64,000 nucleotides of DNA from a virus: IMG/VR virus record IMGVR_UViG_3300042304_001334, positions 1-64,000 of that record, one strand, 5' to 3'. The translations under genes and the position numbers were made by a program. Positions 23,500 through 54,380 of this stretch are shown piece after piece; positions within the stretch are counted from its first letter, which is position 1; every line of letters starts with the position of its first letter. Under the pieces are notes generated by a model that ran no database searches, was not told the origin of the DNA, and saw only the letters and a program-made list of their open reading frames with translations.

Positions 23500-24390
23500 T
23501 CACCACTTTCTACAGCTCCAATATCTTGCCGATGTTCTATCTTTTGCCGTAGAACATTTATGTCTTGCTCTGAAACTCTTTCTACGCTTTGGATTGCTCT
23601 TTTTGATACGCATGTTTGGATCACCAAAATTTACTTTCTTTACATTACCTGTCGTTGGGTTCTTAACAAACACTTTAAATTTTTTTACATCGCCACGCAT
23701 TGGTTTACCAAGTTTTACTTTGCGACCACGATATTCTGCTTCTTCTAATGTAGCATCAGCATTCATATCACCATACATTTCATAAAATTCATCACCTTCG
23801 CATGTATGTTCATCACCTTCTGGAATCATATCCCATTTGGTTGATTCATATGTTTCTTCCAAATCTTTTTCTCCCATGTTGAACTTTGACTTTGGATTGG
23901 TATGGCACCACTTACACTGTTCAAGTTCGGGATCGCCGGTGTATTTATCCTGTACTACATACCACCCTTGATTTTCGCAATGAGGACAATCTTCTCCTTC
24001 GTTTTCTTCAACCTCGCCCATAAATGCAAATCTTTTAAATTCTGCATTTTGTGCAGCAATTGCTTCGGCGTTCTTTTTTAACCATTGATCATATGCCCAA
24101 CTTCCTTTGAATTGCTTGTCAAACCCCGCAACTGCGACTGTTGGGGAACTGAGGGCTTGTTTATAATAAACTGCCTTTTCTGCATTTTTTTTCTTTAGAG
24201 CATTGCGCAGTTCACGGCGTAATCCATCTCCAAAATCTTCCTCCTCATTCACAGGTACACAATTTGGAACTTCTTTACCACCCTTGTTCTTTGTACCATA
24301 TGCTTTATAGCCTTTCCAACATGGATTTTCCATTTTTTTAACTTCTTCCACAACTTCACGAATAATAGACTTTAGTTCAGATTTTTTCAT
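23500..24390 (-). CDS. Putative virion protein with capsid-targeting-like N-terminus and Cys-rich C-terminal domain
   Basis: A 296-residue protein in modules. Residues 1-20 (MKKSELKSIIREVVEEVKK) are shared with other proteins of this phage. Next is NPCWKGYKAYGTKNKGGKEV PNCVP, a short domain common in marine phage and giant-virus proteins. Around 140-160 is a Cys4 zinc-ribbon-like CPHCENQGW...CKWCH. The last ~55 residues (VNFGDPNMRIKKSNPKRRKS, FRARHKCSTAKDRTSARYWS) form a basic domain often found in T4-like structural or head-assembly proteins. Together these suggest a head-packaged DNA-contacting protein; function is not known. Confidence 0.75.
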   Translation of the reverse strand: MKKSELKSIIREVVEEVKKMENPCWKGYKAYGTKNKGGKEVPNCVPVNEEEDFGDGLRRELRNALKKKNAEKAVYYKQALSSPTVAVAGFDKQFKGSWAYDQWLKKNAEAIAAQNAEFKRFAFMGEVEENEGEDCPHCENQGWYVVQDKYTGDPELEQCKWCHTNPKSKFNMGEKDLEETYESTKWDMIPEGDEHTCEGDEFYEMYGDMNADATLEEAEYRGRKVKLGKPMRGDVKKFKVFVKNPTTGNVKKVNFGDPNMRIKKSNPKRRKSFRARHKCSTAKDRTSARYWSCRKW

Positions 24391-24393
24391 AGG

Positions 24394-25107
24394 TTATTTC
24401 TTTTCTTTTAGAGCAGGTGTATCTTTTAGTTTGGTTGTCAGCTTGTCTGAACTTTCCATATCTTTATCTGTCTTGAGATGTGCAGTTGTGGCATCAGCCT
24501 TGGCTTTTAGTTTCAACACACGATCAATAATCTTCTCAATCTTATCTACCATTTCTCCACCCATTGATGCAGATACATCTTTATTGATTGGACCATTTTC
24601 TTTGTCTGCTTTAACATCCGCTTTTTCAGTATTGTCATCTGCAATATCAATCTGCAATTCTTCATCAACATCGTCCATAGTATCTTCCAACTTCATGTCA
24701 TCATCTCTGTCGGCTGTCTTCAGTCCAAATCCTTTTAGACTTTTGTCATATGCTTTTTGAACATATGTCTTTTCACTATCTTTGGCATGTTTCTTTACAA
24801 GTTCCATAGCAGCTTCAAGTGAAACACCACGAGCAATCTTGCGTTCAGATTCATTGGTCACAGACACAACATCATAGTTGTCTTCTGCGTTCTTGCTCAA
24901 CTCAACCTTTTGATTGTCATCACATCCAGCAGTTTTGCCAGTTCCAATGATGCTGCCAGCATTATTTTTACCCATTGCCTTGCCCAAGGCATCAGAACCT
25001 TTTTTGTCGGCATTATCTACGTGTACTTGTACACCAAATTGATTGTTGGCAATTTCTTGTAATACTAATTTCTTGATGGCTTTTTTGATAAGATCTCTGT
25101 TGTTCAT
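24394..25107 (-). CDS. Acidic/Lys-rich protein, possible head core component
   Basis: A 237-residue, highly charged protein (NNRDLIKKAIKKLVLQEIANN at the start, containing an L-Q-E site), with alternating Asp/Glu and Lys runs, a predicted mainly helical or disordered middle (DRDDDMKLEDTMDDVDEELQ) and a helical Lys-rich end. No enzyme motif. Composition and the N-terminal segment resemble prohead core or internal proteins of T4-like phages, but this is inference. Four nt separate it from the next gene, which has the same type of N-terminus. Confidence 0.6.
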   Translation of the reverse strand: MNNRDLIKKAIKKLVLQEIANNQFGVQVHVDNADKKGSDALGKAMGKNNAGSIIGTGKTAGCDDNQKVELSKNAEDNYDVVSVTNESERKIARGVSLEAAMELVKKHAKDSEKTYVQKAYDKSLKGFGLKTADRDDDMKLEDTMDDVDEELQIDIADDNTEKADVKADKENGPINKDVSASMGGEMVDKIEKIIDRVLKLKAKADATTAHLKTDKDMESSDKLTTKLKDTPALKEKK

Positions 25108-25146
25108 AGTGTATATATGCGTTTAGTATATAAATAGTTAGGTGCA

Positions 25147-25174
25147 CAAAAAAACCGCCAATAACATGGCGGTT
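25147..25174 (-). terminator. Intrinsic terminator after nrdA
   Basis: Stem AAACCGCC / GGCGGTTT with loop AATAACAT; on the minus strand followed by a run of T. It closes the nrdB-nrdA transcript 20 nt after the nrdA stop. Confidence 0.9.
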
Positions 25175-25193
25175 TGTGTTGTTTTTATAATAT

Positions 25194-26843
25194 TTAAGCC
25201 TCACAACTCTTACAATCAAGGATACTTCGTCCAAGTTCTTGGGCTGGGTTTGTGCCACGTTGATAATATAGGCACTTTATACCCTGTTCCCAAGCGAATA
25301 TAATCAATTGATTGACTTCTTTGACCGAAGTCTTGGGATGTATCTGTAAGTTTATACTTTGCCCCTGATCAATAAACTTTTGACGAGCAGCCGCCTGTAT
25401 TACAATCTCCTTTTGACTGATTTCACCAAATGTCTTGAACACTTCTTTTTCATGATCACTCAAAAATTCAAGGTGTTGTACAGAACCACCCTTGTGCAGA
25501 ATACTCTTCCATACTTCTTGAGTGTTCTTGCTATGCTTTTCCAATACATTTTCAAGATATGGATTGCGATAAGTGAACTTACCTTTAGCCAAATCTTTTG
25601 TATAATAATTGCTGTTTAGCGGTTCAACAGAAGGAGATACTTGACCCAGAATAAATGAACTGCTTGTGGTTGGTGCGATTGCCATTGTGGTGACGTTTCT
25701 CAACCCATACCCCTTCAACAATGCTGGTTCACCATATTCTTCTGCCATTTCTTTGCTTGCAGCAATACTCTTGTCGCGAATAACACGATGAATTTGAGTA
25801 TTGAGAAGTTTGGCTTCTAGACTTTCAAACGCAATCATTTTGCTTTGCAGATATGAATGCCAACCAAGAACTCCAATACCAAGTGCTCTTTGATTTTTAG
25901 CAAAGTTATGAGCAGCCTTGAGAAACGGAATATTTTCAGTTGCATGAATATAATCTTCCATCACAGCATCAAGAAAGTATGTTAATGTTTCAACAGCGTC
26001 AGTTGTCTTCCAATCATCATAATGAAGCAAGTTCATAGATGATAAATTGCAAACAAATGTTTCATCTGCTGACGAACTCAAGCAAATTTCGCTACAAAGA
26101 TTAGAAGCATGTATCTTCATCTTTTTGTCTTTGTATACTTGAGGAGCGTTATTGTTTACATTGTCGCTGAAAAAGATATATGGATAACCACTTTCAAAAC
26201 GCTTTTTGAGCACTTTTGCCCAGATTGATCGAGCATCTTTGTCTCCATCAATCATCTTCTTCATGAACTTGTTGTTGACACAAACACCAATACTCAAATC
26301 TTGAATAGCATGACCTTCTTCACGAATGCCAAGAAATTCCAGAATATCCGGATGATCTATTGGCAAATATGCAGCAAATGAACCTCTACGAACATTTGAT
26401 TGTGAAACAACTCTGGTCACGCTGTCAAACATTTCCATGAAATGAACAGGACCGGAACTGGACCCACCAACGCTGATTGGTGTGCCTCTGGCTCGCAGTT
26501 CTCCAAAATATCCAGACGTTCCAGCACCATACTTTGTGAGCATACCTACTTCAGCAGTCTTTTCTAGAATAGAATTCATTGTGTCAGACACATATGAACC
26601 ATTGCATGAAATAGACAATCCTCGACCATTGCCAAAATTTGCCCACACTGGGGATGATAAACTATACCATCCCTTGTGCATATAAGACTCAAACTTTTCA
26701 GCAAATCCTTTTTTCTTTAGAATTTTTTCAGCAGCCTTTGATATTTCAAGAATTCGTTCCTCGGGTGTTTGACCCTTGGGTAGATATCCTCTTTCAAGAA
26801 ATGTTACGCTATCTTTGTTTAACCAATAAATGTCTTTGCTCAT
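25194..26843 (-). CDS. nrdA: Ribonucleotide reductase class I alpha subunit, compact form
   Basis: A 549-residue catalytic subunit. Present: SISCNGSYV (first redox Cys), the catalytic SNLCSEI (N-x-C-x-E thiyl-radical site), FVCNLSSMNL (second redox Cys), GIGVLGWHSYL, the KCLYYQRG Tyr pair of the radical-transfer path, and a C-terminal CKSC that would receive electrons from thioredoxin or glutaredoxin. It is about 200 residues shorter than typical NrdA: the N-terminal ATP-cone is absent, so overall activity should not be switched off by dATP in the usual way. It makes dNTPs for phage replication with NrdB, which starts 5 nt upstream of it. Confidence 0.95.
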   Translation of the reverse strand: MSKDIYWLNKDSVTFLERGYLPKGQTPEERILEISKAAEKILKKKGFAEKFESYMHKGWYSLSSPVWANFGNGRGLSISCNGSYVSDTMNSILEKTAEVGMLTKYGAGTSGYFGELRARGTPISVGGSSSGPVHFMEMFDSVTRVVSQSNVRRGSFAAYLPIDHPDILEFLGIREEGHAIQDLSIGVCVNNKFMKKMIDGDKDARSIWAKVLKKRFESGYPYIFFSDNVNNNAPQVYKDKKMKIHASNLCSEICLSSSADETFVCNLSSMNLLHYDDWKTTDAVETLTYFLDAVMEDYIHATENIPFLKAAHNFAKNQRALGIGVLGWHSYLQSKMIAFESLEAKLLNTQIHRVIRDKSIAASKEMAEEYGEPALLKGYGLRNVTTMAIAPTTSSSFILGQVSPSVEPLNSNYYTKDLAKGKFTYRNPYLENVLEKHSKNTQEVWKSILHKGGSVQHLEFLSDHEKEVFKTFGEISQKEIVIQAAARQKFIDQGQSINLQIHPKTSVKEVNQLIIFAWEQGIKCLYYQRGTNPAQELGRSILDCKSCEA

Positions 26844-26848
26844 ATATA

Positions 26849-27823
26849 TTAAAATAGATCGTCGAATGTGATAGACTGTGTTTTCTTAGAGTACTCTACA
26901 GGACGCTTGTGAAAGAAATCAGTCATAGTATTGCCCATTACATCTTCATCCATCCACATAGTCAAATCAATAATTTCTTGAGACACATTAAAAATCTTTT
27001 TGAATCCAATCATTTCTAGTGAATCATTTAATCTTTTTTGTACATATCCTTTGAGAATATCTGCACTGATTCTTGAATCTTTATAGTCACCAATCATCCA
27101 ATCAATGATTTTGGATTCGGCGTCGTAGGATTCTTTGGCTTCGTGCAGAATGCGTGCTTCCAATTCAGCGTCAAATAATTCTGGCAGTTCTTGTCGAATT
27201 GTATTTACGATCTTAACGCCAGCAAGACCATGCAATGTTTCTTCTTTGGCTGTATATGCAACTTGTTGTGCAGTGTCTTTGAGTAGACCCTTGTAGCGAT
27301 TAAACCAATTGATGATATAAAACTGACTAAATAATGACACGTTCTCTACATACAGTGTGAATAGAATAAGCGAGTATACAAATTGTTTTTTATCATTTTC
27401 ATAGTTCTTATCAAGATACTTGCGTAAATACTTGATTCGTCCTTGAATAATATCCAACTTTAGATTTTCTTCAAATATATCCTGCAATTGTAGCACATCC
27501 AATAGTTTTTCGTATGCATTATTGTGAATAACTTCAATGTTTCCCATAGTAATACCCAAATCAGATAATGCTGGATGTGGAAGTGTGTCACCCAACTTTG
27601 TCCAAAACTTCTTTACAGAAATTTCAATTTGACCAATAGCACTCAATGTGTTCTTGATGATGAGCTGTTCTTGTAGAGTCATCTCAGTCTTGTATTGTTG
27701 CAAGTCAGATGTAAATGTGAACTCGTTTGGAGTCCAATGTCCCGCCCACATTGCGTCTATATATTCTTGTGCCCAAGGATAGCGATTCGGTTTGCGTGCA
27801 ATTTGTTCGTCGAAAATAGTCAT
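26849..27823 (-). CDS. nrdB: Ribonucleotide reductase class I beta subunit
   Basis: A 324-residue ferritin-like protein. The metal-ligand helices are visible: GQIEISVKKFW, GNIEVIHNNAYEKLL (E, H and the radical Tyr position), YTAKEETLHGLAG (E-E-x-x-H) and a later E/H helix (ILHEAKESYDAE). It houses the metal centre and tyrosyl radical needed by NrdA. Length is slightly under the usual 340-390. Gene order nrdB-nrdA in one transcript. Confidence 0.94.
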   Translation of the reverse strand: MTIFDEQIARKPNRYPWAQEYIDAMWAGHWTPNEFTFTSDLQQYKTEMTLQEQLIIKNTLSAIGQIEISVKKFWTKLGDTLPHPALSDLGITMGNIEVIHNNAYEKLLDVLQLQDIFEENLKLDIIQGRIKYLRKYLDKNYENDKKQFVYSLILFTLYVENVSLFSQFYIINWFNRYKGLLKDTAQQVAYTAKEETLHGLAGVKIVNTIRQELPELFDAELEARILHEAKESYDAESKIIDWMIGDYKDSRISADILKGYVQKRLNDSLEMIGFKKIFNVSQEIIDLTMWMDEDVMGNTMTDFFHKRPVEYSKKTQSITFDDLF

Positions 27824-27909
27824 AAAGGTTAATTTTTGTTTGGGTGTTGTGTGGTGAATAAATACATTTTATAAAAAATAAATTTGTAAAAAAATTTTAA
27901 AATATTTTC

Positions 27910-29307
27910 TTACAAATTGGTGTTTTCGCCATTTTGCTTTTGGCGACCACTGTTCCATTTATTTTTCAACATGTTCTTTACACTGTTATCATCACCTTCC
28001 ATTGTTGATTGAATTGCCATAGATTCTTTGGATTTGGCGTCATACAAATCAATTTGACCAGTGCTGGTGTTCATATTGGCATACAAGGTAATACCATCCG
28101 GTCCAAATCTATTTTTGATAACATGACAACGAGCAGTGTTGTTGGCTTTGTCTGTTGTATTACGGGCAACACTCAACACAAAGTCGGCAGTCATGATCTT
28201 GCGATATGAATCGGCGATGTTATGGGCTTGAACAACATCTTCTTGACCACCGCCGCGATTGGTTTGTGAAGCAGTCCATACTGGAATTTGTAGTTCACCC
28301 GCAGCTTGTCGAAGTTCTTCGTATATACCGCCAGCCTCACTATAACTGTTGCTGTTGGTTTCTTTTTCAAGTGGTCGCAGAATGTCGGCATAATCAACCA
28401 CCATTTCATCAATATGAATTCCTTCCAATGCTTGAATACGTTCAATATGAAACTTCAATGATTGAGCACTTACTGTCTTCAACGGAAAATACTTTACAAA
28501 AAGTTTTCCTTTGATGTCTTTGATTTTTTCTTCAACGTCAGATTGACGATGTTTAATTTCTTGAAACTCAATTCCTGTAAAACAACAATCATAACGAAGA
28601 CCAACATAGTTTTCATTTAGTTCCAGTGTGAAGTGAGCAATATTCTTTCCCGATTTCATTGCTCTGGCTCCGAGACTGCACAACAACCACGATTTTCCAA
28701 TGCCCGCTGGAGCCACAATAATACCAAGTTCACCAGGTCCAAGACCGCCATCCATAAGGCTGTCAATGACTTCCCAACCAGTAGAAATTGTCTTGCGGCA
28801 CATTTCACTCATACGACCAGCAACTTCTTTATGGTAGTTGTGACCAAGATTGCGTTCCATACCAGCCTTCATTGCCTTATCAACCAACCCCTTGATTTTA
28901 TCATATTCACCAGTTTTTAGATGATCAACTGATTCAATAATAGCACTCTTCAACTTTTGATTCTTACAGAATTCAAGAAATTGTTCACGAACAAACTGCA
29001 AATCTTTTTCACTGATTTTTGTGTAAACTTGTGTTAGTTGCTGTACCACAGAAGATTTGAATGCATCATTTTCAATAGTGTCAATACGAACCTTGAATAC
29101 TTGCGGTGTTGGCAAGTCTTTGTATTGAATATGATATTGAATAATTTCTTTGAGAATCCATTGATGGGCTTCGTTTTCAAACGCATCCACATCAATAATG
29201 TCGCATATTCTTTCAAGAAATACTTTGTCAGTTAAAATACTTGCTACAATTTTTACTTGAAATTCCAAGCCAAATTTATGTAGATTGTCGATGATTACTG
29301 GTGCCAT
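27910..29307 (-). CDS. 41: Replicative DNA helicase, DnaB/T4 gp41-like
   Basis: A 465-residue hexameric-helicase protein. The N-terminal ~160 residues are the helical primase-interacting domain; the RecA-like core has Walker A VAPAGIGKSW around residue 210, Walker B MVVDYADIL near 302, and ASQTNRGGGQ near 347 with the DnaB H4-like Gln and Arg/Gly residues. It unwinds DNA 5'-3' at the fork. No gp61 primase is seen in the window. The C-terminus is Asn/Lys-rich. Confidence 0.9.
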   Translation of the reverse strand: MAPVIIDNLHKFGLEFQVKIVASILTDKVFLERICDIIDVDAFENEAHQWILKEIIQYHIQYKDLPTPQVFKVRIDTIENDAFKSSVVQQLTQVYTKISEKDLQFVREQFLEFCKNQKLKSAIIESVDHLKTGEYDKIKGLVDKAMKAGMERNLGHNYHKEVAGRMSEMCRKTISTGWEVIDSLMDGGLGPGELGIIVAPAGIGKSWLLCSLGARAMKSGKNIAHFTLELNENYVGLRYDCCFTGIEFQEIKHRQSDVEEKIKDIKGKLFVKYFPLKTVSAQSLKFHIERIQALEGIHIDEMVVDYADILRPLEKETNSNSYSEAGGIYEELRQAAGELQIPVWTASQTNRGGGQEDVVQAHNIADSYRKIMTADFVLSVARNTTDKANNTARCHVIKNRFGPDGITLYANMNTSTGQIDLYDAKSKESMAIQSTMEGDDNSVKNMLKNKWNSGRQKQNGENTNL

Positions 29308-29324
29308 AATAGTTATTTGTTAAT

Positions 29325-29353
29325 ACGATATTTCGTATTTGTTATTTAGTCAA
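29325..29353 (-). promoter_or_regulatory. Candidate promoter of the helicase gene
   Basis: Minus strand: -35 TTGACT (29353-29348), 17 nt, -10 TATCGT (29330-29325). About 17 nt remain to the ATG at 29307. The -35 is embedded in TTGACTAAATAA, identical to the sequence before the kinase gene. Confidence 0.4.
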
Positions 29354-29373
29354 TTGTTAATTAGAATGTAAAA

Positions 29374-30438: not shown

Positions 30439-30795
30439 TTACTTTGTTTGTTCCAGTATGGCGTTGAAGAATCTTTGCATGTTGTGTAGATATGATAATC
30501 CACCAACTTCTTTTATACCGCCGTCATCTACTTTACAAAATGTTGATCCCATCAGTTCATTTCCTTTGAATCGTATTTCACAAAGCATAACAGTGCGAAG
30601 TGCTACATTGTCATGTTTTGTAAAACGAACAAGTTGCTCATCATATCTAAGACTGCATTTATTTGTAGTCAAATATACATTATCTCCATATCCAGTTTTA
30701 TGAATTTCAATCTTCTTTTCTTTGCACCATTTCTGAAATTCTTCTGGTTCAGCGGGTGTAAAATTTGATGTAATATATTTATTTTTTGTTGCCAT
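30439..30795 (-). CDS. Hypothetical protein in the replication operon
   Basis: A 118-residue protein, one base from the 5' nuclease gene. Segments such as AEPEEFQKWCKEKKIEIHKTG and VALRTVMLCEIRFKGNELMGS suggest a small alpha/beta fold. No catalytic signature. Position between uvsX and rnh suggests a replication or recombination accessory protein. Confidence 0.65.
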   Translation of the reverse strand: MATKNKYITSNFTPAEPEEFQKWCKEKKIEIHKTGYGDNVYLTTNKCSLRYDEQLVRFTKHDNVALRTVMLCEIRFKGNELMGSTFCKVDDGGIKEVGGLSYLHNMQRFFNAILEQTK

Positions 30796-30799
30796 AATA

Positions 30800-31036: not shown

Positions 31037-31054
31037 AATATTTTATTTGAGAAC

Positions 31055-31080
31055 CGTGTGGAGGTATTTCACTCCACACG
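31055..31080. other. Nine-base-pair hairpin between uvsX and the next gene
   Basis: Perfect inverted repeat CGTGTGGAG / CTCCACACG with an 8-nt loop in the 54-nt gap after uvsX. No T-run follows on either strand, so it is not a normal terminator; it could protect or process the polycistronic mRNA. Confidence 0.55.
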
Positions 31081-31090
31081 ATTAATTTCT

Positions 31091-32323: not shown

Positions 32324-32346
32324 AATAATTATTATTTTTGAAAGTT

Positions 32347-32385: not shown

Positions 32386-32416
32386 ATAATTTAGTTTATT
32401 GATTGATCAACGCTTA

Positions 32417-33836: not shown

Positions 33837-34712
33837 TTATGCTTTTGGAATAATTTTTTCGGCAAAGATTTTGTATTCTTCGCGATCATTATTTCGTATC
33901 GGAACAACTTCACCGGACAGTCCTACCACAGCGACCGGATTGCCTTCGCCGTCTTTATATTCTCCATATGGAGTAGATGTCCATCCACGTTGAATTGCAA
34001 ATTTTGTTGAAACCGCTGCGTATTGTGCGGGTGGAGTTGTAACCACAGGAACGTCTATCGCAGGAGTTTCTGCCGACTTTGTAGATACGAAATCCGCATC
34101 TGTCGGAGAATCTGATTTTTTTGATACAGGTGCTGTTGGTTCTTTTGATGCGACGGTTGACGCGGCGGGCGATCTTGGTGGTGCCGCTAGGTCGGGTTTT
34201 TTTGTCAGTGCATCCAATCTTGCAGATCTTGTAGATGAACTCGATGGTTGTGGTGAACCCTGTGGTTTGGTGGAGGTGGGGTCCGCAATTGGTGATAATT
34301 TTTTGCTTGGTGATTTGGCAATTGCTGGTTCTTCTTGCTGTGTGGTAGATGCCACCTGCTGTGTTTGTCTCTTTTGCTTACCCCGTTTTTTGTAATACAA
34401 ATTCATTCCACCTTTTCCGCGAGTTGGATCAGAAGAAAAATGTGTGCCTTTTTTTAGTGCTTTTTGTTTATACTCGGTGGATGGAAATGTCACCAACCAT
34501 CCATCCTTATTGTATGCTTGACGTTCGGGATATTTACCTTCATCCATGAATTTTTTAACAAATTTATTTACAATTTGCTCATCCTCACACACATCATAAA
34601 TTGCTTCCGCGACAACTTGTAAATGATCTGAATTTCTTAAATCTACCACACCGTCATGTATTCTGGGATCTAAAGACGCTTCCGTTATTATATTGTATAT
34701 GAGATCGTTCAT
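33837..34712 (-). CDS. Putative head-packaged protein with long Pro/Ser/Thr linker
   Basis: A 291-residue protein. Residues 1-~110 form a helical domain (NDLIYNIITEASLDPRIHDG; EQIVNKFVKKFMDEGKYPERQAY) with an I-T-E site at the N-terminus like a T4 prohead protease site. Residues ~115-225 are low-complexity Pro/Ser/Thr/Ala (KSPSKKLSPIADPTSTKPQG and similar). The last ~65 residues are a small domain with WTSTPYGEYKDGEGNPVAVVG. The architecture suggests a structural or internal virion protein; no enzymatic motif. Confidence 0.6.
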   Translation of the reverse strand: MNDLIYNIITEASLDPRIHDGVVDLRNSDHLQVVAEAIYDVCEDEQIVNKFVKKFMDEGKYPERQAYNKDGWLVTFPSTEYKQKALKKGTHFSSDPTRGKGGMNLYYKKRGKQKRQTQQVASTTQQEEPAIAKSPSKKLSPIADPTSTKPQGSPQPSSSSTRSARLDALTKKPDLAAPPRSPAASTVASKEPTAPVSKKSDSPTDADFVSTKSAETPAIDVPVVTTPPAQYAAVSTKFAIQRGWTSTPYGEYKDGEGNPVAVVGLSGEVVPIRNNDREEYKIFAEKIIPKA

Positions 34713-34726: not shown

Positions 34727-36265
34727 TTATGCAGTCGTTGTTGCTGCGGCTGCACCCACATCGCCTGCGGCTTGTGATTTGCTTCTGCCCATTCCGGGTA
34801 CATACATGTATAATTTTCCAAATCCAAGTGCTACAAACTCCAGTGTTTTGATCTTGGACTCATCGTACAACACTGCGTCGTTGGTTCCCTTCTTTTTATT
34901 AATGATGATCATTCTCTTGTACTTTCCTATTACAAGATTTATAACTTCGTCCTGTACTCTTTTTTCATCCCAATTCTCTCTAAAGAAAGCCAGCTTCATT
35001 GCCTTGTCTGCGATTGCGTCATCGCCTTCTTCGTCCTTGGGAGATATCGGCACATTCAATGTAGTTTCTTCTCCCTGTGTGGAATCTATTGCTGCACTTA
35101 GTTCAGGTACTTTGTCGTCGGGTACTTTAAATTCACGGTGTTTATTTCCAATGTCAATTTCCACCGATCCAATTGATTTTTTTTCTTTGTTTTCTGGATT
35201 ATTTTTTCTTTGAATTATCTTCTCGGATATTAAAAAAATTGAATCTAGTAAAAATTTTGAAACTTCGCCTACTTTTGGATCTTTAAAAAATGAATTGATT
35301 GCAGTTTCGTGTTTTTCCAAATTTGAATCCGTTCCAATGTCAGGATACAACCCCCCATTACTTATGCCTTTGTCGTTCAATACCTTGAGCATGAAGTCTT
35401 TCATTTTTGGCGTTTTGTTTACAGCAAGAGCAAGTTCATGTATTGCAATATTAAACTTTGAATTTGAAAACCCAGTCAAAGTCGGCGCACTTATTGCAAT
35501 TGTGGCACCTGTCACTTCTTTGACTTCCACCCCGCCTTGTTTATCTGCAAGTTCAGCAAACAAAATATCCATTTCAGTTCCGCCACCAGACCTTGCGCCT
35601 TTCAGAATAAAAACAATAGGTATTTCTCCACGGCCACCGCCAGCAAATTTAACATCATCAATTGCATTGATCAATGATTGAAATTCTGGGTATTTAGTTC
35701 CCTTGTATATTTCAATGGCTTCTTCAATCGTTGGTATACTATCATACATGGATTTGTATTTTTTTACCAAAGATTGGTTTGGAAAAGTTTCAAATACTCT
35801 TTTCAATTTTTGTACATTTGCTATAGACACCGATTTACGATTTCTCAACGATTTTAATTTTTCATCTTTCTCGGCTTTTACCAAAGCATCGCTCTGATTT
35901 TCTTTATTTCCTATCTTATAAGTCTTATCTGGAAATTCGCGTGGACCTTTATATATGGATTTATCTGGATATTTGTTTTGTTCCGGGTGTCCAACTGATA
36001 TAAAATGCAGTATCTTTTTGCGGTCCTTTGGATCAATTACTTTAAAAATATAATCACGGTCATCACCATATACTTTGGGTTCTTCACCCTCGGTAAACAC
36101 CGGGGCCGTGACTTCTCCAATTTCAGATTCAGACAATCCATACTCAAGTAGCATATCTTCAAATATTTCTGCATTCTCCGGTGTGCTATAACCACCAACC
36201 AATCCATCATGCGAACGCATTGCCCACTCATTCAAAATGTCGTTTATGATTTTGTTTTTGTCCAT
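34727..36265 (-). CDS. Putative virion protein with PD-(D/E)xK nuclease-like core
   Basis: A 512-residue protein. The N-terminus (DKNKIINDILNEWAMRSHDG) has the L-N-E/W-A-x-R signature seen at the start of many T4-like marine phage proteins. Residues 70-95 (DYIFKVIDPKDRKKILHFIS) form a second small domain. In the centre, GEIPIVFIL (E214), GTEMDILFAELA (D233) and GGVEVKEV (E247-V-K249) follow the E...D...ExK order of PD-(D/E)xK nucleases. The C-terminus is Ala/Thr rich. A packaged nuclease acting on host or competitor DNA is possible; activity is not proven. Confidence 0.55.
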   Translation of the reverse strand: MDKNKIINDILNEWAMRSHDGLVGGYSTPENAEIFEDMLLEYGLSESEIGEVTAPVFTEGEEPKVYGDDRDYIFKVIDPKDRKKILHFISVGHPEQNKYPDKSIYKGPREFPDKTYKIGNKENQSDALVKAEKDEKLKSLRNRKSVSIANVQKLKRVFETFPNQSLVKKYKSMYDSIPTIEEAIEIYKGTKYPEFQSLINAIDDVKFAGGGRGEIPIVFILKGARSGGGTEMDILFAELADKQGGVEVKEVTGATIAISAPTLTGFSNSKFNIAIHELALAVNKTPKMKDFMLKVLNDKGISNGGLYPDIGTDSNLEKHETAINSFFKDPKVGEVSKFLLDSIFLISEKIIQRKNNPENKEKKSIGSVEIDIGNKHREFKVPDDKVPELSAAIDSTQGEETTLNVPISPKDEEGDDAIADKAMKLAFFRENWDEKRVQDEVINLVIGKYKRMIIINKKKGTNDAVLYDESKIKTLEFVALGFGKLYMYVPGMGRSKSQAAGDVGAAAATTTA

Positions 36266-46147: not shown

Positions 46148-46203
46148 GTTATATGATATTTATTATATCTTATATAAGTATATAATAACCGACATTTTTA
46201 CCA

Positions 46204-47263: not shown

Positions 47264-47337
47264 ATTTATATAACGGTTGTTTGTTATATATATGAACTAC
47301 AAAAAGTTTTGTGTATATATAAAAACTAAGATATTAT

Positions 47338-48324
47338 TTATATCTTTTTCTTTGAGTCTGATTCAACTGCTTTCTTTTTGTTTGCAGTAATCAATTGAAT
47401 AACACCCATCAATAATATAGAACCAGCCGCTATTGCTCCTATAATCCACATAGGAACAGTGGTTGCCATATATGCAAGACCCAGAAATGTGATGCCAGAA
47501 AAAATCATATTGAAGCTTTTGAACAACACACCAAGAATCACAAACAATATTCCAATACCACCCAACAATCTAACCAACCATACCATAAGTTCTTGTTGTT
47601 GTGCTTCTTTTAATAAACGAACTTGATCAACTGCGTCAGCACGAATGCGATCAACTTCTATTTTCTTTTCGGCTTCTATTTTTTCAATTGCAATACGATT
47701 AGCTTCTTTTAGTTGCGACTTTTCTTTTTCTTTTTGAACAATTATTGCTTCAGCATCATCCAATTGAGCTTTTTGATTCACAGCCAATTCAATTGTTGCT
47801 TTGTATTTTATATACAATCCATCTATACTTTTTTGAAGAGATTCTTTAATAATTTTTTCTTCAGCAACTTCTTTTTGAATTTCTGATTTTTTAGCGTCAG
47901 TTAGAACATCTGTACGCATCATTATTTCTTTTGAACGTAGATGTGCAATGGTGGTATTAATGTCTACTTTTTTCTTTTCTTGAGTTACATGATATACACC
48001 ATAGTTTATTTCTGATATCTTAGCGAAATTCTCAAGGTCTTTTTCGCGAAGATCATTATATGCCTTTTGTGTTTCTGCCTTTAACTTGGCATATTCAGCC
48101 TCCATATTTTTTTTGTCATCTGCTGCTTTTTTTTCCGCTATTTCTGCCCTTTCCATTGCTTCTTTTGCTGACTGCGCTGCAACAACTGCCGCCACATTTA
48201 CTTCTGGTTCTTTTGCTATTTGTTCGGATTTTTCCGGTTTCTTTCCAAAACTAGGCATCTTTGGTATACTTGGACATCCTGTCAATAGAAACAGAGCCAG
48301 AAATGATATGACTAGTTTTTTCAT
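47338..48324 (-). CDS. Phage lipoprotein with coiled coil and membrane C-terminus
   Basis: A 328-residue protein. The start at 48324 is chosen because MKKLVISFLALFLLTGCPS is a perfect lipoprotein signal with lipobox LTGC; the longer upstream frame overlaps the preceding gene. Residues ~55-225 are a long Ala/Lys/Glu coiled coil (AMERAEIAEKKAADDKKNME), followed by three hydrophobic spans (VWLVRLLGGIGILFVILGVL, MIFSGITFLGLAYMATTVPM, WIIGAIAAGSILLMGVIQLI) and a Lys-rich tail. It could act in lysis (spanin-like), superinfection exclusion or export. No specific family recognised. Confidence 0.75.
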   Translation of the reverse strand: MKKLVISFLALFLLTGCPSIPKMPSFGKKPEKSEQIAKEPEVNVAAVVAAQSAKEAMERAEIAEKKAADDKKNMEAEYAKLKAETQKAYNDLREKDLENFAKISEINYGVYHVTQEKKKVDINTTIAHLRSKEIMMRTDVLTDAKKSEIQKEVAEEKIIKESLQKSIDGLYIKYKATIELAVNQKAQLDDAEAIIVQKEKEKSQLKEANRIAIEKIEAEKKIEVDRIRADAVDQVRLLKEAQQQELMVWLVRLLGGIGILFVILGVLFKSFNMIFSGITFLGLAYMATTVPMWIIGAIAAGSILLMGVIQLITANKKKAVESDSKKKI

Positions 48325-48328
48325 GATA

Positions 48329-49396
48329 TTATTTGATTGCTTGTTTTGCTCGTTTTGCTGCTTGTAGTTTCTTAATAATAAAGGCACGCTGTGCAGCTTT
48401 TCTTTTTTCTTCTGAAGATGACATAGCAGCAAGATCGCTTTCTGGAGCGTCGTCTAGTTGATTGTCTGTGTCAGCAGAAAGTTCTTTTCTCAATTCATCT
48501 GCGGTTTTCTTGACAAACGCTGGATCTAGATTGAGAGATACTTCTTCTTCGCTTGCACTTGAAGACAATTGTTGCATGATATCGCTGTCTGTTGTGTTGG
48601 GAGCAGCGGTCAAAATATTTTCAATTGCACCACGAGTTGCTGTATCAAAGTCAGATCCACCGACACTTGAAACTGGTGCAACTTTCTTTGGACGACCCAT
48701 ACCAGCAATTCCTTTTGGAATATATGGTCCTTTTGGAGCTTCGGTTGGTGTGCCATCTGGAATGGTCTTGTGACCTTTGACTGCCCAGCCGGTTGGAGAA
48801 CTTGAATCTTGCACTTTAAACTTGCTGCCCACAGCACCTTTAACACGAATTTCTTCAATGTCCGATTCTGCAATAGCTTCGCGAATCATTCCCAAGATGT
48901 CTTCTTTGAGACTGCCCATATTTTTTGATGTGGATGGTTTTTTGAATCCAGATAATCTTTTGGTTTCGTCAATACGTTTTTGCTTTGCTGCAACAACTTC
49001 TTGAATAATTACTTTTAGTAGTGCTTTTAGTTCAGATTTTTTCATGGTAGTTTTGTTTTCTTGTAAATTATTTTCGCTGATTTTTGTATTTGGCATATCA
49101 GATTCAATCCACTTCTTTACTTTTTCAATCATATCTGAAGATTTCCAGTTAATTTCATATGGACTTATGTTCACGTCATGTTCTTTACCGTCCGGTCCTT
49201 TGACATAATGAAACAACTTGATATTGTCTTCTTCACGATCTTCATCTGCCCAAAATTTATATGGTCCTTTGCTAGTTTGAATCATAACAGAATTGTCAAA
49301 CAACTCATTCAAATCAGTAGCATGTGTGTCTTGTGGCAATGGATGTTGATCTTGTAGCATTTCTTTGATCAAATCCTTTAGTTCAGATTTTTTCAT
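48329..49396 (-). CDS. Putative internal head protein with repeated targeting motif
   Basis: A 355-residue, mostly helical and charged protein. It begins KKSELKDLIKEMLQDQ, and the same motif occurs again near residue 119 (MKKSELKALLKVIIQEV), with a third related helix near 165 (SLKEDILGMIREAIAESD). This suggests a fusion of two formerly separate proteins or internal processing sites (I-K-E, I-Q-E, I-R-E) for a gp21-like protease. The middle has a KFKVQDSSSPTGWAVKGH segment; the C-terminus is Ala/Lys-rich. Likely prohead core or injected protein; inference. Confidence 0.6.
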   Translation of the reverse strand: MKKSELKDLIKEMLQDQHPLPQDTHATDLNELFDNSVMIQTSKGPYKFWADEDREEDNIKLFHYVKGPDGKEHDVNISPYEINWKSSDMIEKVKKWIESDMPNTKISENNLQENKTTMKKSELKALLKVIIQEVVAAKQKRIDETKRLSGFKKPSTSKNMGSLKEDILGMIREAIAESDIEEIRVKGAVGSKFKVQDSSSPTGWAVKGHKTIPDGTPTEAPKGPYIPKGIAGMGRPKKVAPVSSVGGSDFDTATRGAIENILTAAPNTTDSDIMQQLSSSASEEEVSLNLDPAFVKKTADELRKELSADTDNQLDDAPESDLAAMSSSEEKRKAAQRAFIIKKLQAAKRAKQAIK

Positions 49397-49399
49397 AAT

Positions 49400-49903
49400 T
49401 TATTGTTTATCTTTTATAGCATTTATTCTGTCAATGACTTGACCTTGCTTCTTTGACAAACTTGCTTTTTTACGTTCAAGTCCTTCTATTTTTCTTTGAA
49501 CTGGTGCATGCAGTTTGACTATATCAGCGTCAATTTTGCGAATATCATTCGTGATTTTATCCAAAGCAGCTTGATATATTGCCAATGATTTTTTGTCTGA
49601 ATCAGTCATACCAGATTCTGGAGCAGATACTCCAACCTCGGCTGCACCAACTTCACCAATTTCCTGAATAGTTTCATTTTGTTCAACTGAATCTGTATTT
49701 ACACTAAAATACAAAACGCCGTTGTTTTCATAAATTTCTACAATTTCCAAATTGTGTGAACCGGCGTGAGTCATTATCTTCACATCTTTTATAGAATTTT
49801 CACCAACAATTTTATTCACAGCATCAGCGTTCTGACCAATATTTTCATTCAGTTTACGCTGAACAATTTCTTTGATAAGATTTCTTAGTTCAAATTTTTT
49901 CAT
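49400..49903 (-). CDS. Putative internal head protein with coiled coil
   Basis: A 167-residue protein starting KKFELRNLIKEIVQRKLNEN, the shared targeting-like segment with I-K-E. A small beta-rich domain (SIKDVKIMTHAGSHNLEIVE, VLYFSVNTDS) follows; the last 60 residues form a coiled coil (QAALDKITNDIRKIDADIVK). It lies 3 nt from its downstream neighbour and overlaps its upstream neighbour by 4 nt, all three with the same N-terminal type. Confidence 0.6.
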   Translation of the reverse strand: MKKFELRNLIKEIVQRKLNENIGQNADAVNKIVGENSIKDVKIMTHAGSHNLEIVEIYENNGVLYFSVNTDSVEQNETIQEIGEVGAAEVGVSAPESGMTDSDKKSLAIYQAALDKITNDIRKIDADIVKLHAPVQRKIEGLERKKASLSKKQGQVIDRINAIKDKQ

Positions 49904-50265
49904 TTGCCGTGCATTTTTAATATTTCAGCAGCAGCGGCTTTTGCTTTTTTAGCCAATTCAACTTCACGCTTTTCTTCTGGATTATTCATGTCTGTTTCAT
50001 CATGTTCTTCATTCATTCCTTTAGCTTCCCAAGCAGCCCACATTTCACAAACACGCTGATTACCTTCATTTTTAGAATTATGCATCTTCCACATTGTTGC
50101 ATAAGCTTTTTGTGGAACATCTTTGTATCTACTCAACAATTTCTTTTTAAGAGCAGCTGGAAAATTTGGTGGAGTTCCTTCTTGTAGATTGGTTTCAGCC
50201 ACTCCCAATCCAATTGCTTCTTTTACTATTTGTCTTACCAGTTGTTTTAGTTGATCTTTATTCAT
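49900..50265 (-). CDS. Small conserved phage protein with targeting-like N-terminus
   Basis: A 121-residue protein: NKDQLKQLVRQIVKEAIGLG at the start, then PNFPAALKKKLLSRYKDVPQ, KAYATMWKMHNSKNEG and VCEMWAAWEAKGM. The YATMWKxHN...EMWxAWE module is common in T4-like phage proteins of unknown function. The C-terminal third is a Lys/Ala helix. It is the first gene of a three-gene operon with its own promoter. Confidence 0.65.
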   Translation of the reverse strand: MNKDQLKQLVRQIVKEAIGLGVAETNLQEGTPPNFPAALKKKLLSRYKDVPQKAYATMWKMHNSKNEGNQRVCEMWAAWEAKGMNEEHDETDMNNPEEKREVELAKKAKAAAAEILKMHGK

Positions 50266-50383
50266 AGATTTTCTATTCTTATTTTTAAGTATATATAAAT
50301 ATCAATAAGTTTATAAAAAAAGTGTATTTAAGTTACACAGTGTTTGCATTTATTGTGTGATTTGTGTGGCTTGGAATCAAGAT

Positions 50384-50411
50384 TGTATAGTCAGATATGA
50401 ACAGATGTCAA
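50384..50411 (-). promoter_or_regulatory. Sigma-70-like promoter of the 50265-48329 operon
   Basis: Minus strand: -35 TTGACA (50411-50406), 16 nt, -10 TATACA (50389-50384). A leader of about 110 nt follows, including an AT-rich part. The 249-nt gap 50266-50514 otherwise holds only the terminator at 50458. Confidence 0.55.
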
Positions 50412-50457
50412 GATCAAAATGCTCAACTACATGTTATTATAACAATATATAAAAAAG

Positions 50458-50483
50458 AAAACCACCGATTATTCGGTGGTTTT
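50458..50483 (-). terminator. Intrinsic terminator after the tail tube gene
   Basis: Stem AAAACCACCGA / TCGGTGGTTTT, 4-nt loop, followed on the minus strand by a T-rich run (TTTTCTTTTTT). Confidence 0.9.
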
Positions 50484-50514
50484 CAGGTGTAGAATTAAAC
50501 TTTGACTTATTATA

Positions 50515-51012
50515 TTAAAATTGCAGAATACAATAGTCCATGCTCAGTGTGACACTTATTGTCAACGCATCTCCTGCACTTGACCAATCCAGCGCAGTTG
50601 CATTGAAATCAACTTGTGAAGGAAACGCACCCTTGATGTCCCACTTTTCAACAATATCTCCAACAGGACCAAGAACTTGAATTTGTACGTCCTTCTTGTA
50701 CATGTCGGCATACCCGTTGCGACCAGTGACAGATTCATGTGCCAGACGCACCCATTCCATGCATGCTTGAGCAGCAGACGGAACGATTGGATCATACAAA
50801 GTGATATTAATGTCCTGCCATTCACTCTTGCCTTTCAACTTGCGCTTCAAATTGATATGATCCATTGTTATAACACCAACGTTGATATTGGGACGACCGG
50901 CTGCTTTTATAGTATACGCGGGTATACCGTCGATATTCATTATGAAACGATTGGCCACTTTTGGCTCAAATGCTGTAAAGAAAATTTGATTTTGGTCTAT
51001 TAGTTCTGCCAT
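50515..51012 (-). CDS. 19: Tail tube protein (T4 gp19-like)
   Basis: A 165-residue protein matching gp19-type tube subunits: ANRFIMNIDGIPAYTIKAAG, a loop with KLKGKSEWQDINITLYDPIV, ACMEWVRLAHESVTGRNGYA, and a final strand pair (GDALTISVTLSMDYCILQF). Length agrees with T4 gp19 (163). It forms the inner tail tube through which DNA passes. It stands alone between two terminators/leader regions, so is transcribed separately, as expected for an abundant protein. Confidence 0.93.
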   Translation of the reverse strand: MAELIDQNQIFFTAFEPKVANRFIMNIDGIPAYTIKAAGRPNINVGVITMDHINLKRKLKGKSEWQDINITLYDPIVPSAAQACMEWVRLAHESVTGRNGYADMYKKDVQIQVLGPVGDIVEKWDIKGAFPSQVDFNATALDWSSAGDALTISVTLSMDYCILQF

Positions 51013-51126
51013 AATATTGGGTGTTTAATTGTTTGTTCTTTGATTATAAATATACAATAAAATATAAAATAGTTTAATTATTATCAAAATTATTTAATCT
51101 TATAATAAGATAATGTTGGGAATTTT

Positions 51127-51603
51127 ATGAATGGTGTTGACATATTAATAAACGGTGTTCATTGTGCAATTATGACTATATTCAATATAGAAAGATCTTT
51201 TACAGAAAAAGCCAAGCGTCGTTGGAATAAAATCTTTATTGCTGTAGATGTGCATGATGTTATATTAGAAGCCAAATATAATCTAAATAATGATGGTGCG
51301 GATTATATGCCCAATGCAGTAAAAGTGTTGCAGCAATGGAGCAAGCGTGAAGATATATCTTTGATATTATGGACAAGTAGTCATGTCTTACCTGCCAGTA
51401 AAGTATTGGATAATCTTGAAAAACATAATGTATATTTCAAACATGTAAATTGCAATCCAGAATGTCCAAATGATGCATTGTGTGACTTTAGCAAAAAGTT
51501 TTATGCCAATGTAATTTTAGATGACAAGGCGGGATTTTCAGGAAACGACGATTGGTTTTTAATTGAAAAAGAATTGAAACGAATTGGAGAATGGAAAGAA
51601 TAA
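51127..51603 (+). CDS. HAD-like hydrolase/phosphatase
   Basis: A 158-residue plus-strand protein. FIAVDVHDVILE near residue 40 is the HAD motif I (D-x-H-D instead of D-x-D-G), ISLILWTSSH near 80 gives motif II (Thr/Ser), and FYANVILDDKAGF near 130 gives the acidic motif IV (DD). It would remove a phosphate from a small or nucleic acid substrate, as the phosphatase half of T4 PseT does; this could complement the kinase-only protein at 8936. A second ATG at 51172 is another possible start. TATAAATA, the T4 late promoter core, lies at 51045-51052 on this strand. Confidence 0.65.
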   Translation: MNGVDILINGVHCAIMTIFNIERSFTEKAKRRWNKIFIAVDVHDVILEAKYNLNNDGADYMPNAVKVLQQWSKREDISLILWTSSHVLPASKVLDNLEKHNVYFKHVNCNPECPNDALCDFSKKFYANVILDDKAGFSGNDDWFLIEKELKRIGEWKE

Positions 51604-51696
51604 TTTAATATAGTACAAATAGTATTGACTATACCAATCAAATGTATAACAATAAATATTGTCAACTAATAACGGTTGATGCAACAAAAGAAAAAT

Positions 51697-51912
51697 ATGA
51701 AAAAGTATATCCTATTAGCACTAGCATCAGTATTGTCAGTTGTAGCCGCAGAAAAGAAAGAACGCCCGCCGCTGACTGATGAGCAAAAAGCAATCGTCGC
51801 AAAGTATGACACAAACAAGGATGGTAAATTGGACAAAGAAGAACGAGCAAAGATTACACCAGAAGATGCAGCAAAGTTGCCGCCTCCTGCCGCTGGTAAA
51901 AAGAAGCAATAA
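51697..51912 (+). CDS. Small secreted EF-hand protein
   Basis: A 71-residue protein. From the ATG at 51697 it starts MKKYILLALASVLSVVAAEK, a signal peptide with A-x-A-type cleavage. Then PPLTDEQKAIVAKYDTNKDG and KLDKEERAKITPEDA: an EF-hand loop D-x-N-x-D-G-x-L-x-x-x-E that should bind calcium. Such short DEQKAxxxKYDxNKDGKLDxEE proteins are common in Verrucomicrobia/Planctomycetes-type bacteria. It is followed by its own terminator and stands alone on the plus strand, like a moron gene taken from a host. Earlier in-frame starts (51676 TTG, 51679 ATG) would spoil the signal peptide. Confidence 0.75.
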   Translation: MKKYILLALASVLSVVAAEKKERPPLTDEQKAIVAKYDTNKDGKLDKEERAKITPEDAAKLPPPAAGKKKQ

Positions 51913-51935
51913 GTTCGTGAAGCAATAATTCACTT

Positions 51936-51969
51936 AAAAAAGAAGCCCCGAGAAATCGGGGCTTTTTTA
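51936..51969. terminator. Bidirectional intrinsic terminator
   Basis: Stem AAGCCCCGA / TCGGGGCTT with a GAAA tetraloop, A-run before and T-run after. It serves the plus-strand EF-hand gene and the convergent gene at 51974. Confidence 0.93.
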
Positions 51970-51973
51970 TTTC

Positions 51974-53719
51974 TTACTTTGAAAGTTTAGAAGCTATTCT
52001 TGCTATATCGCTATACACAGCATCATCATCTTTTTTGTATCTCGATGATATATCTTCAATATAAGGGTTTATGTCTGGATATATACCAAACTCAATTGCA
52101 TACGATAATATTTGTTTTGCCGCGTTTTCAATTTCTCGTTCATACCCATCGTTGTTCATGGCAATTTCTTTTACAGCCTTTGGAACGGTTGCATATCTAC
52201 CAAATAAGAAAATATAAGTCAGAACATCGGAAGGACCAAACCCACTAACTGCTCTATATGCATCCTTTAATGTGGCACCGGCTTCCAAAGTATCGTCAAT
52301 CAGCAATACATTTGCTCCTTTTATTTTCTTGATCAAGTCAATAGAGTACCCTTCCGCAACAGTGTAAAACATGCTATAATACATTCTATTGGTAGCACCG
52401 ACTTTTTTGATTTCAAATTCTTCTTCTCCGTGATTTTTTTTCTTAGACTCTAAATCTCGAATGACATATTCAAAATATGACAGATCTTTTTTTAGGCTCT
52501 TGGCTCGTTTGTACTGATGCCAAAATACGGGTGACAATTGTACGTTTTTCCATTTGTCTTTTTTCAAAAATCCTTCCAATACCACTGCATTTGGAACATA
52601 TCGTTTAACTTCATTTGCAACGACGTAATTTAATTTGCTTTTTGATCCAAAAGGAATGATTACACTTATCTTTGATGCATCATACACTTCGGAGTTGAAC
52701 AATCTTTCGACGGATATTTTAACCAAATTTCTTACAATCGATTTGCTGCCAGCACCGTGCTCTGGGTGCTTGACTGCATGGCGCAAATTTACAAGAGCAG
52801 TTTCCATATAATCATCGTCGCCGGCGTCTTTCATCGCCTGCACTGCTTTTGGCATGACCCTGAATGCAGCGTAAACTTTCATTCCATGTACTGTAAAAAA
52901 TTTACGTGCATCATCGTCGTCGGTAGGAACCAATCCAAATTCACCCTCATCTTCGTCGGCCATCCAAGTCACAGATTTTCCATCCGGCGAAGATATACCG
53001 TCGTCAATTTTCTCTAATTCATTCACGCTCATCTTTTTATCATAGTTCTTGGCTATATTGTCTTTGATTTTATCCAAATATCCATGAGCACGAATAATCT
53101 TGAATACTATATTTTCTTCACTCAATTCGCCGCCACTATCCAAACCAGATTGACGATACTTATAAAGCTTGTCCAACAGACTCTTTAGAGCAGTTTCATC
53201 ATGTTTTGACAATAGTGTTGTTATCTTCTTTTTGTATTCTTTATACTTCTTTTTTATAAGTTCTTTGTTGAAAGTTGGACTTTCTTTAACAGGTTCTTGA
53301 ATCCAATCATTTTTATATACACTATATGAACTGGCTGAAGTAGGTACATGTGCTGTGTCTTGAACATATATTTCAACATCATGACCTTTCATGGTAATAT
53401 TATGTTTGTTGTTCCAACCCACTTTTATAGCATCAAATAATGTTTGAGCATCATCTGCTGTCATATCTAAATCTTTAAAATCTGTGACAACATGCAAGTC
53501 AATGTCACTATAATCTGTCCAATTATAATTGGTGATGCTGCCAATGACAACAATATCATATATTTTTATATGTATATTATTTTCTTTCTTGAGATTGGCC
53601 ACAAAATCTTGCGCGATTTTTAATAATCCTTTGCGCACTATATCATCAAGTTTGGCACCATCTTCATTGATGTTCCAAAGTTTTGGACAAAGATTATTGC
53701 GATATAAAGGATATTTCAT
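51974..53719 (-). CDS. Nucleotidyltransferase-phosphoribosyltransferase fusion protein
   Basis: Start at 53719 (MKYPLYRNNLCPKLWNINED); the frame is open for 50 more codons but these overlap the HAD gene. A Pol-beta-type nucleotidyltransferase domain has VVIGSITNYNWTDYSDIDLH (G60-S61...D72-x-D74) and a third acidic strand GHDVEIYVQD. A helical region follows (~190-310). In the C-terminal third, ANVLLIDDTLEAGATLKDAY (about 469-488) is a PRPP-binding loop of phosphoribosyltransferases. The 581-residue combination is unusual. Possible roles include nucleotide salvage or modification of a host molecule; the reaction is unknown. Confidence 0.65.
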   Translation of the reverse strand: MKYPLYRNNLCPKLWNINEDGAKLDDIVRKGLLKIAQDFVANLKKENNIHIKIYDIVVIGSITNYNWTDYSDIDLHVVTDFKDLDMTADDAQTLFDAIKVGWNNKHNITMKGHDVEIYVQDTAHVPTSASSYSVYKNDWIQEPVKESPTFNKELIKKKYKEYKKKITTLLSKHDETALKSLLDKLYKYRQSGLDSGGELSEENIVFKIIRAHGYLDKIKDNIAKNYDKKMSVNELEKIDDGISSPDGKSVTWMADEDEGEFGLVPTDDDDARKFFTVHGMKVYAAFRVMPKAVQAMKDAGDDDYMETALVNLRHAVKHPEHGAGSKSIVRNLVKISVERLFNSEVYDASKISVIIPFGSKSKLNYVVANEVKRYVPNAVVLEGFLKKDKWKNVQLSPVFWHQYKRAKSLKKDLSYFEYVIRDLESKKKNHGEEEFEIKKVGATNRMYYSMFYTVAEGYSIDLIKKIKGANVLLIDDTLEAGATLKDAYRAVSGFGPSDVLTYIFLFGRYATVPKAVKEIAMNNDGYEREIENAAKQILSYAIEFGIYPDINPYIEDISSRYKKDDDAVYSDIARIASKLSK

Positions 53720-53789
53720 TTTTTTAAAGCCATAACGTCGGTGATATGAAACTGTTCTTTTATCAAAATAGATCTCAGTTTTAAATTGC

Positions 53790-54380
53790 TCATATTGAGA
53801 GTATATCTCTAATTTTTTGTATACTGCTCGCTGTGTCTGTGTGATGAATGGCAATGTTGCCAGACACATTTTCCCATGCTGTTATGTTATCCGGCCTGCC
53901 GTCTTCTACGTCACCGGGACCGGTGTCATCCAACAACACATTCATAACATTCGGAATTTTTGTAGCATAGTTTGATTTCAAATAACCAGAGGTTGCAATT
54001 CTTACCTCAACCGTTGAATCAATATATTTTCTTATCCAAGCTTCTTTTTGTTTTTTAACATTGGAACCTTGTCCCGCGCTTAGTATTATGGGCGTCGGAT
54101 TTTTAAAATTATCTTTTACAAAGTCCCACAAAATTTTTGCGTCTGGTAGAGGATCTAGATTCAACCAAAAATTTGGATTTTTTTCTACAACATCCCAAAA
54201 AGCATTTTTTCCATTTTTTTTAGAATATTCTTTTGGTGTCATTGTTGTTATTTTTTTGAACCCACCATCCAAATCAACGAGAACTCCGTCCATATCTACG
54301 TATAATTGAATTTTTAATGGATTTTCACCATCTTCTTTGGCCACCGCTTCTTTCAAGATATTCTTCAGTAATATATGCAT
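53790..54380 (-). CDS. HAD-family 5'(3')-deoxyribonucleotidase-like protein with targeting-like N-terminus
   Basis: A 196-residue protein. YVDMDGVLVDLDGGF (D29-x-D31) is HAD motif I of the nucleotidase group; PTPIILSAGQGSNVKKQKEA supplies motif II and the Lys; MNVLLDDTGPGDVEDGRPDN gives the acidic motif IV. The first ~18 residues (MHILLKNILKEAVAKEDGEN) precede the catalytic domain and contain L-K-E, like the putative capsid-targeting segments elsewhere. It would dephosphorylate nucleotides or another phosphorylated substrate; it sits beside the nucleotidyltransferase-PRTase gene. Confidence 0.75.
   Translation of the reverse strand: MHILLKNILKEAVAKEDGENPLKIQLYVDMDGVLVDLDGGFKKITTMTPKEYSKKNGKNAFWDVVEKNPNFWLNLDPLPDAKILWDFVKDNFKNPTPIILSAGQGSNVKKQKEAWIRKYIDSTVEVRIATSGYLKSNYATKIPNVMNVLLDDTGPGDVEDGRPDNITAWENVSGNIAIHHTDTASSIQKIRDILSI

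Follow-up and report, generated by a model that had tools for sequence, protein, structure and literature searches.

Eight open reading frames (ORFs) of an environmental phage share a short N-terminal segment, or tag, which is probably a divergent capsid-targeting sequence (CTS) that would be cut by the prohead protease gp21. The window, i.e., the whole stretch of DNA analysed, comprises 64,000 bases of IMG/VR record IMGVR_UViG_3300042304_001334 (full record 68,032 bases). Comparison of the predicted proteins establishes a family of such tags, their modularity, their residue pattern, and a link to records that bear gp21. The head-targeting reading, proposed in the initial annotation, is borne out in part: it is favoured by the spacing of T4 IPII and IPIII, by glutamate at the predicted cut position, by an excess of the S77 protease (gp21) over controls, by some tagged genes that adjoin gp21, and by T4-type tags on the same bodies and on several virion proteins of cyanophage S-CREM2, whereas a search of the window's own record found no gp21 and the fuller consensus is found in only about five of the eight proteins.

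The source is a T4-like phage. The gene order ssDNA-binding protein, recombinase, exonuclease, helicase, ribonucleotide reductase (assigned by eye) is the one annotated in Flavobacterium phage immuto, and T4-like relatives were found for the tail sheath, phage Mel-JY01 providing the best match. A close relative, the 297,258-base virus record G001, encodes proteins 97% identical to those of window ORFs 34727 and 53790, the other tagged proteins being about 82-96% identical over aligned parts. The initial annotation had proposed a search for further tagged proteins and a gp21-like protease. G001 has both, encoding the S77 protease and gp23, and is used here as a stand-in for the head genes of the window phage; the S77 protease gave no match in the 68,032-base window record, nor in the 14 control genomes of the family.

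All eight ORFs listed in the initial annotation are present with tag-like starts, each on the minus strand. The consensus is strong in ORF 23500-24390 (296 aa; tag MKKSELKSIIRE at 24355-24390, profile score 26.2), ORF 48329-49396 (355 aa; MKKSELKDLIKE at 49361-49396, 26.4), ORF 49400-49903 (167 aa; MKKFELRNLIKE at 49868-49903, 26.0), and ORF 49900-50265 (121 aa; MNKDQLKQLVRQIVKE at 50218-50265, 21.9). ORF 24394-25107 (237 aa) has a weaker tag, MNNRDLIKKAIKKLVLQE at 25054-25107, with a score of 12.9 and a spacing that does not fit the T4 type. The fuller consensus is thus seen in about five, and three show a looser motif only: ORF 33837-34712 (291 aa; MNDLIYNIITE at 34680-34712, score 4.3), ORF 34727-36265 (512 aa; MDKNKIINDILNE at 36227-36265, score outside the best eight of the 60 window proteins), and the HAD 5'-nucleotidase ORF 53790-54380 (196 aa; MHILLKNILKE at 54348-54380, score 9.3). 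The loose pattern hydrophobic-xx-hydrophobic-hydrophobic-x-E occurs within the first 24 residues of seven of the eight, V being allowed for I/L; 24394 falls outside it, though its tag ends in LVLQE. Window protein 30800, absent from the earlier list, scores 11.0. In the 33837 family, the relative in IMG/VR locus L016 starts with MKTINEFISTVITE, resembling T4 ipI; its start MKTINEFISTVITEA is close to the ipI sequence MKTFKEFTSTTTPVSTITEA.

ORF 48329-49396 carries a second, internal tag, MKKSELKALLKVIIQE, at residues 118-133 (48998-49045, minus strand). The second half of this protein is a separate tagged ORF in IMG/VR loci L166, L125, L086, L099, and L027, the called ORF in L027 beginning 13 residues before the tag. 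Internal tag-like segments were also observed in longer proteins of L040 (12931-14307), L188, L125, L099, and L086. In the related minus-strand ORFs 58066-59337 and 59959-61125 (48% identity), a tag-like start is found on 59959 only; it was treated as chance, the paralogue being without one.

The bodies behind the tags are diverse. The assignment of 53790 as a HAD nucleotidase holds (PHROG 2643, E 1.6e-17; the top structural matches are HAD proteins), with a below-cut-off Pfam match to NT5C; the structure model is confident for the body (pLDDT about 90) and not for the tag helix (about 60). The initial description of 34727 as PD-(D/E)xK-like found no backing in PHROG or Pfam matches, and its AlphaFold model, with a mean pLDDT of 44, was too poor to be used. 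The zinc ribbon ascribed to 23500 is represented only by a below-cut-off Pfam match (E 0.067). Other matches below the Pfam cut-off are SNaCT8 for 49400 (E 9.4e-5) and heme lyase for 49900 (E 0.004), and 33837 has a weak PHROG match to a baseplate wedge (E 0.0073). The C-terminal 85 residues of ORF 23500-24390 constitute a PHROG 7595 module, with tblastn matches in most of 30 matching phage records, small Pelagibacter and Roseobacter phages being among the carriers; in Synechococcus phage B23 the match lay at the tag end of this protein, not in the C-terminal module.

A profile built from six immuto start sequences was used with a threshold score of at least 12. It picks 5 of the 60 window proteins vs. 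1 of 347 internal Met-anchored segments (p 0.0003), and 11 of 393 ORF N-termini of G001 vs. 1 of 1224 such internal segments (p 1.5e-6), the two counts not being independent because G001 holds homologues of the window proteins. Over all internal windows of G001 the figure is 5/5594; one of the G001 matches, 175687, is not tag-like in appearance. The immuto scaffold-like start, which lay outside the training set, is picked as well. Of the 60 window N-termini, eight fit the loose pattern, namely the seven above and 59959, vs. 72 of 2022 internal windows (p 0.0013). A similar loose pattern is not significantly enriched in G001 (19/368 first starts vs. 42/1243 internal Met, p 0.12), so that in this genome it is the fuller consensus that carries the enrichment. 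The strong tag, as judged by the profile, was found in 0/243 proteins of Mel-JY01, 0/65 of Melnitz (39.8 kb), 0/95 of S-CBWM1 (50 kb), and 1/231 of S-CREM2, which means that it is not general among these phages; Mel-JY01 has an annotated prohead protease, yet lacks the strong tag.

Across environmental phages the MKKSELKxLIKE-type motif, searched in back-translated form as MKK-S-like-[EQ]-LKxLI-x-E, is present in at least 120 stretches of IMG/VR. One order-permuted codon control gave no matches in IMG/VR, and 84,980 cellular genomes yielded two motif matches, by eye a transposase start and a short phage-like contig. In 121 of 133 motif matches, the reading frame upstream reaches a stop codon without passing another Met. 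The 148 distinct tagged proteins fall into 106 k-mer body clusters. Among 86 representatives, 39 Pfam families were matched at E of 0.01 or below, each of the 25 listed matching one member; in the PHROG scan of the same representatives, one of the 25 families listed matched two. Among the Pfam families matched are a serine/alpha-beta hydrolase, Gp88, and, weakly, an ADP-ribosyltransferase; T4 Alt, which the latter brings to mind, is described as an ADP-ribosyltransferase of the head (PMC9026906). A tblastn search with the 22-residue tag consensus found no match. In the literature searched, from which subscription journals were mostly absent, no paper naming a KKSELK motif was found; the string matches concerned S100B and brain or immune topics.

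These results bear on the idea that the starts have no common function, being lysine-rich products of A-rich gene starts combined with ordinary amphipathic helices, or copies of a DNA cassette spread by duplication. Lysine-rich protein starts are common, and in G001 the loose pattern by itself shows no significant enrichment. However, the permuted control is absent from IMG/VR, only two matches came from cellular genomes, and the 153 tags have 140 different first-36-base strings, which indicates selection on the protein rather than on the DNA. We consider this explanation very improbable.

The residue pattern agrees with that of known T4 tags. T4 ipII and ipIII start with MKTYQEFIAE, and gp24 with MAKINELLRE. 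L6, L9, I10, and E12 of the tag reproduce the spacing of YQEFIAE in ipII/ipIII and of INELLRE in gp24, shifted by two; T4's own ipI, gp22, and gp67 lie outside this spacing. According to the part of PMC9026906 consulted, residues 4 and 7 of ipIII direct targeting, 8 and 10 direct processing, and gp21 cuts after L/I-x-E. The glutamate positions were counted in 75 distinct tags from 61 body clusters, drawn from 80 listed of at least 120 loci without E being demanded. E12 is present in 48 of the 61 clusters, E16 in 49% and E20 in 46%, vs. 10%, 15%, and 5% for E at the exposed positions 8, 15, and 19; the favoured positions are those two after a hydrophobic residue. By tags, E12 occurs in 56 of 75, and 15 of the other 19 combine a hydrophobic residue 14 with E16. 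At least one (I/L/V)xE site lies within residues 8-24 in 72 of the 75 tags (shuffles: mean 50.8, maximum 62), with 2.04 sites per tag vs. 0.96 after shuffling. In 18 aligned gp23-like sequences from these phages, T4 not being among them, [LI][ILV]xE stands at a shared place in 15, and in 13 it is followed by A or S (by eye); this place is near the expected propeptide end and the T4 cut region.

Like T4 IPII and IPIII, the tags are N-terminal, about 10-20 residues long, of the form hydrophobic-xx-hydrophobic-I/L-x-E, and attached to unrelated bodies. They differ in the consensus (MKKSELKxLIKE rather than MKTYQEFIAE), in the frequent extra (I/L/V)xE at 16 and 20, in the far larger number of body families, and in being known here from sequence only. 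Giant phages of the SPN3US and phiKZ type belong to a different phage group; a likeness to the propeptides of their head proteins would lie in cleavage by a prohead protease as the head is assembled, which is reported for those proteins.

On the basis of this pattern, we propose the following sequence of events. During prohead formation, the N-terminal helix would dock on the scaffold core through its hydrophobic residues, L6 and L9 among them, and the attached protein would thereby be enclosed by the shell. A gp21-type protease would then cut after (I/L)xE, usually at E12 and sometimes at E16 or E20, freeing the body in the head. More speculatively, the freed body might leave the head together with the DNA.

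The link to the protease was examined in the records themselves. The first start pattern gave 56 loci in records of at least 30 kb, of which 50 entered the count, L103 (identical to G001 and S77-positive) being taken separately and L078, L081, L137, L141, and L164 being left out. The 28 controls were records of at least 30 kb among 80 listed of at least 120 loci with another start pattern. S77 is present in 25 of the 50 tag-bearing records, some of which are relatives of the window, vs. 4 of 28 controls (p 0.0014), the S77-negative tag records possibly being fragments; counted by tagged body cluster, the figure is 27/54. Of the 25 tag records lacking an S77 match, none gave a match to HK97 portal or to HK97 capsid (0/25 each), which carries little weight for fragments, and 6/25 matched a tail sheath.

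All 29 tagged genes in the 25 S77 records lie on the gp21 strand. Nine of them are within 2 kb of gp21, compared with about 2.2 for a rough null model in which gp21 sits mid-contig, and eight are more than 10 kb away. The nine are not independent of one another and by eye represent about four families, five being of one family just behind gp21 and those of L060 and L153 forming one cluster; the gp21-adjacent protein of L088 had no tblastn match in isolates. The G001 genes run as follows: portal-like 271499, 273510, tagged 274387, 275106, gp21, two genes, 278426, a scaffold-like gene, and gp23, the names other than gp21 and gp23 having been given by position and by eye; 275106 is tag-like from an internal Met, and 278426 has a weak tag (score 5.9). 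This recalls T4, where gp67 and gp68 lie between portal and gp21. In immuto, many tags occur just before and among the terminase, portal, protease, and gp23 genes. The immuto scaffold was assigned by its position between protease and gp23, the record label being DNA polymerase phi-like. Proteins near the head genes of immuto, at 103806, 117631, and 118632, have another start in common, roughly F-[DN]-L-[KR]-x-FL-x-ENKLT.

Such an arrangement would also suit scaffold core components, comparable to T4 gp67, gp68, and gp22, that use the helix as a core-assembly segment and are chopped at maturation instead of being kept or injected. Some tagged genes, in G001 next to gp21 and the scaffold-like gene and in other records next to gp21, agree with this, as do the small size of many tagged proteins and the roughly two (I/L/V)xE sites per tag. 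The immuto scaffold-like start resembles the tag, and gp24 offers INELLRE. The Pfam and PHROG scans of the tested proteins (first 25 families listed) revealed no homology of the tagged bodies to gp22, gp67, gp68, or gp24. However, some tagged bodies are enzymes, namely the nucleotidase, a serine/alpha-beta hydrolase, and the protein at G001 283739, which by eye is lysozyme-like. We regard a purely scaffolding role as unlikely.

The neighbourhood of tail genes has to be weighed as well. ORFs 48329-50265 sit among them, tag-like proteins adjoin baseplate genes in immuto and Mel-JY01, and 33837 has its weak match to a baseplate wedge; the helix might accordingly dock proteins to the tail, the baseplate, or a host target, the glutamates merely suiting a helix. 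The fact that the gp21 neighbours comprise fewer families than genes, together with the 33837 match, led us to weight this explanation up and the head-targeting reading down. It is still rather unlikely, given that E is favoured at 12, 16, and 20 and not at 8, 15, and 19, that S77 is commoner in tag records than in controls, and that T4-type tags occur on the same bodies.

Some enzyme bodies do carry, depending on the phage, a KKSELK-type tag, a T4-type tag, or none, as read from their predicted N-termini. The nucleotidases are tagged in the window and in several IMG/VR relatives, and N-terminally extended in immuto and Melnitz; those of Cr30, Atu_ph07, and Phosso are without the extension, and that of L081 nearly so, with the tag absent. 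Among the NMNAT-like enzymes, those of S-CREM2, S-SM2, and Melnitz have T4-type tags and those of IMG/VR L028, L030, L031, and L033 show tag-like starts, whereas there is no tag in RaK2 and GAP32 and a different N-terminus in S-CBWM1.

The virion proteome of S-CREM2, with 52 proteins listed in the part of PMC10665884 consulted, supports a T4-type tag in a related lineage, which is indirect for KKSELK. The virion SAM hydrolase, kinase, cytidylyltransferase, gp13, and gp136 have F..FL.E-type tag starts; gp12 has FASFMAEA near its start, outside the regex window, and gp15 does not fit. The ORF caller recovered 50 of the 52 proteins, 145 and 174 being lost. The T4-type motif, written after sight of the S-CREM2 N-termini, occurs in 5/50 virion proteins vs. 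2/195 other ORF calls (p 0.0045), and a looser motif in 7/50 vs. 11/195 (p 0.0496). The S-CBWM1 NMNAT, reported in virions in the available portions of PMC10665884 and PMC9602691, is without such a tag. The literature search found no virion proteome for a phage with a KKSELK-type tag.

The packing of various proteins by means of CTSs has already been suggested for T4-like phages (PMC9026906). More tentatively, we see some possibility that the present tag is a swappable head-import code, widespread in environmental phages of the T4 superfamily and exchangeable with the T4-type tag, that would load enzymes and host-takeover proteins as a large, variable cargo; the internal tags of window 48329, G001 50931, and L188 would then mark polyproteins cut by the prohead protease. 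If head targeting is correct, a 12-residue start would predict which unknown proteins of uncultured phages travel in the head and so would probably be the first to act in the host. The presence of NMNAT, SAM hydrolase, and kinases in cyanophage virion proteomes could then be viewed in this light, several of these enzymes having a T4-type tag in S-CREM2; in the sections consulted of PMC10665884 and PMC9602691, the authors could not exclude carry-over of such enzymes.

Further features of the window were noted beside the tagged genes. At 21614-23411 (minus strand) an AAA ATPase gene seems by eye to be split into two parts that enclose a GIY-YIG endonuclease-like ORF (22347-23066); the Rfam gathering scan gave no match in the window and thus no intron match in this region. 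Two ORFs, 47338-48324 (minus strand) and 51676-51912 (plus strand), appear by eye to be signal-peptide-like, one of the two being lipoprotein-like with membrane segments and one having an EF-hand-like stretch.
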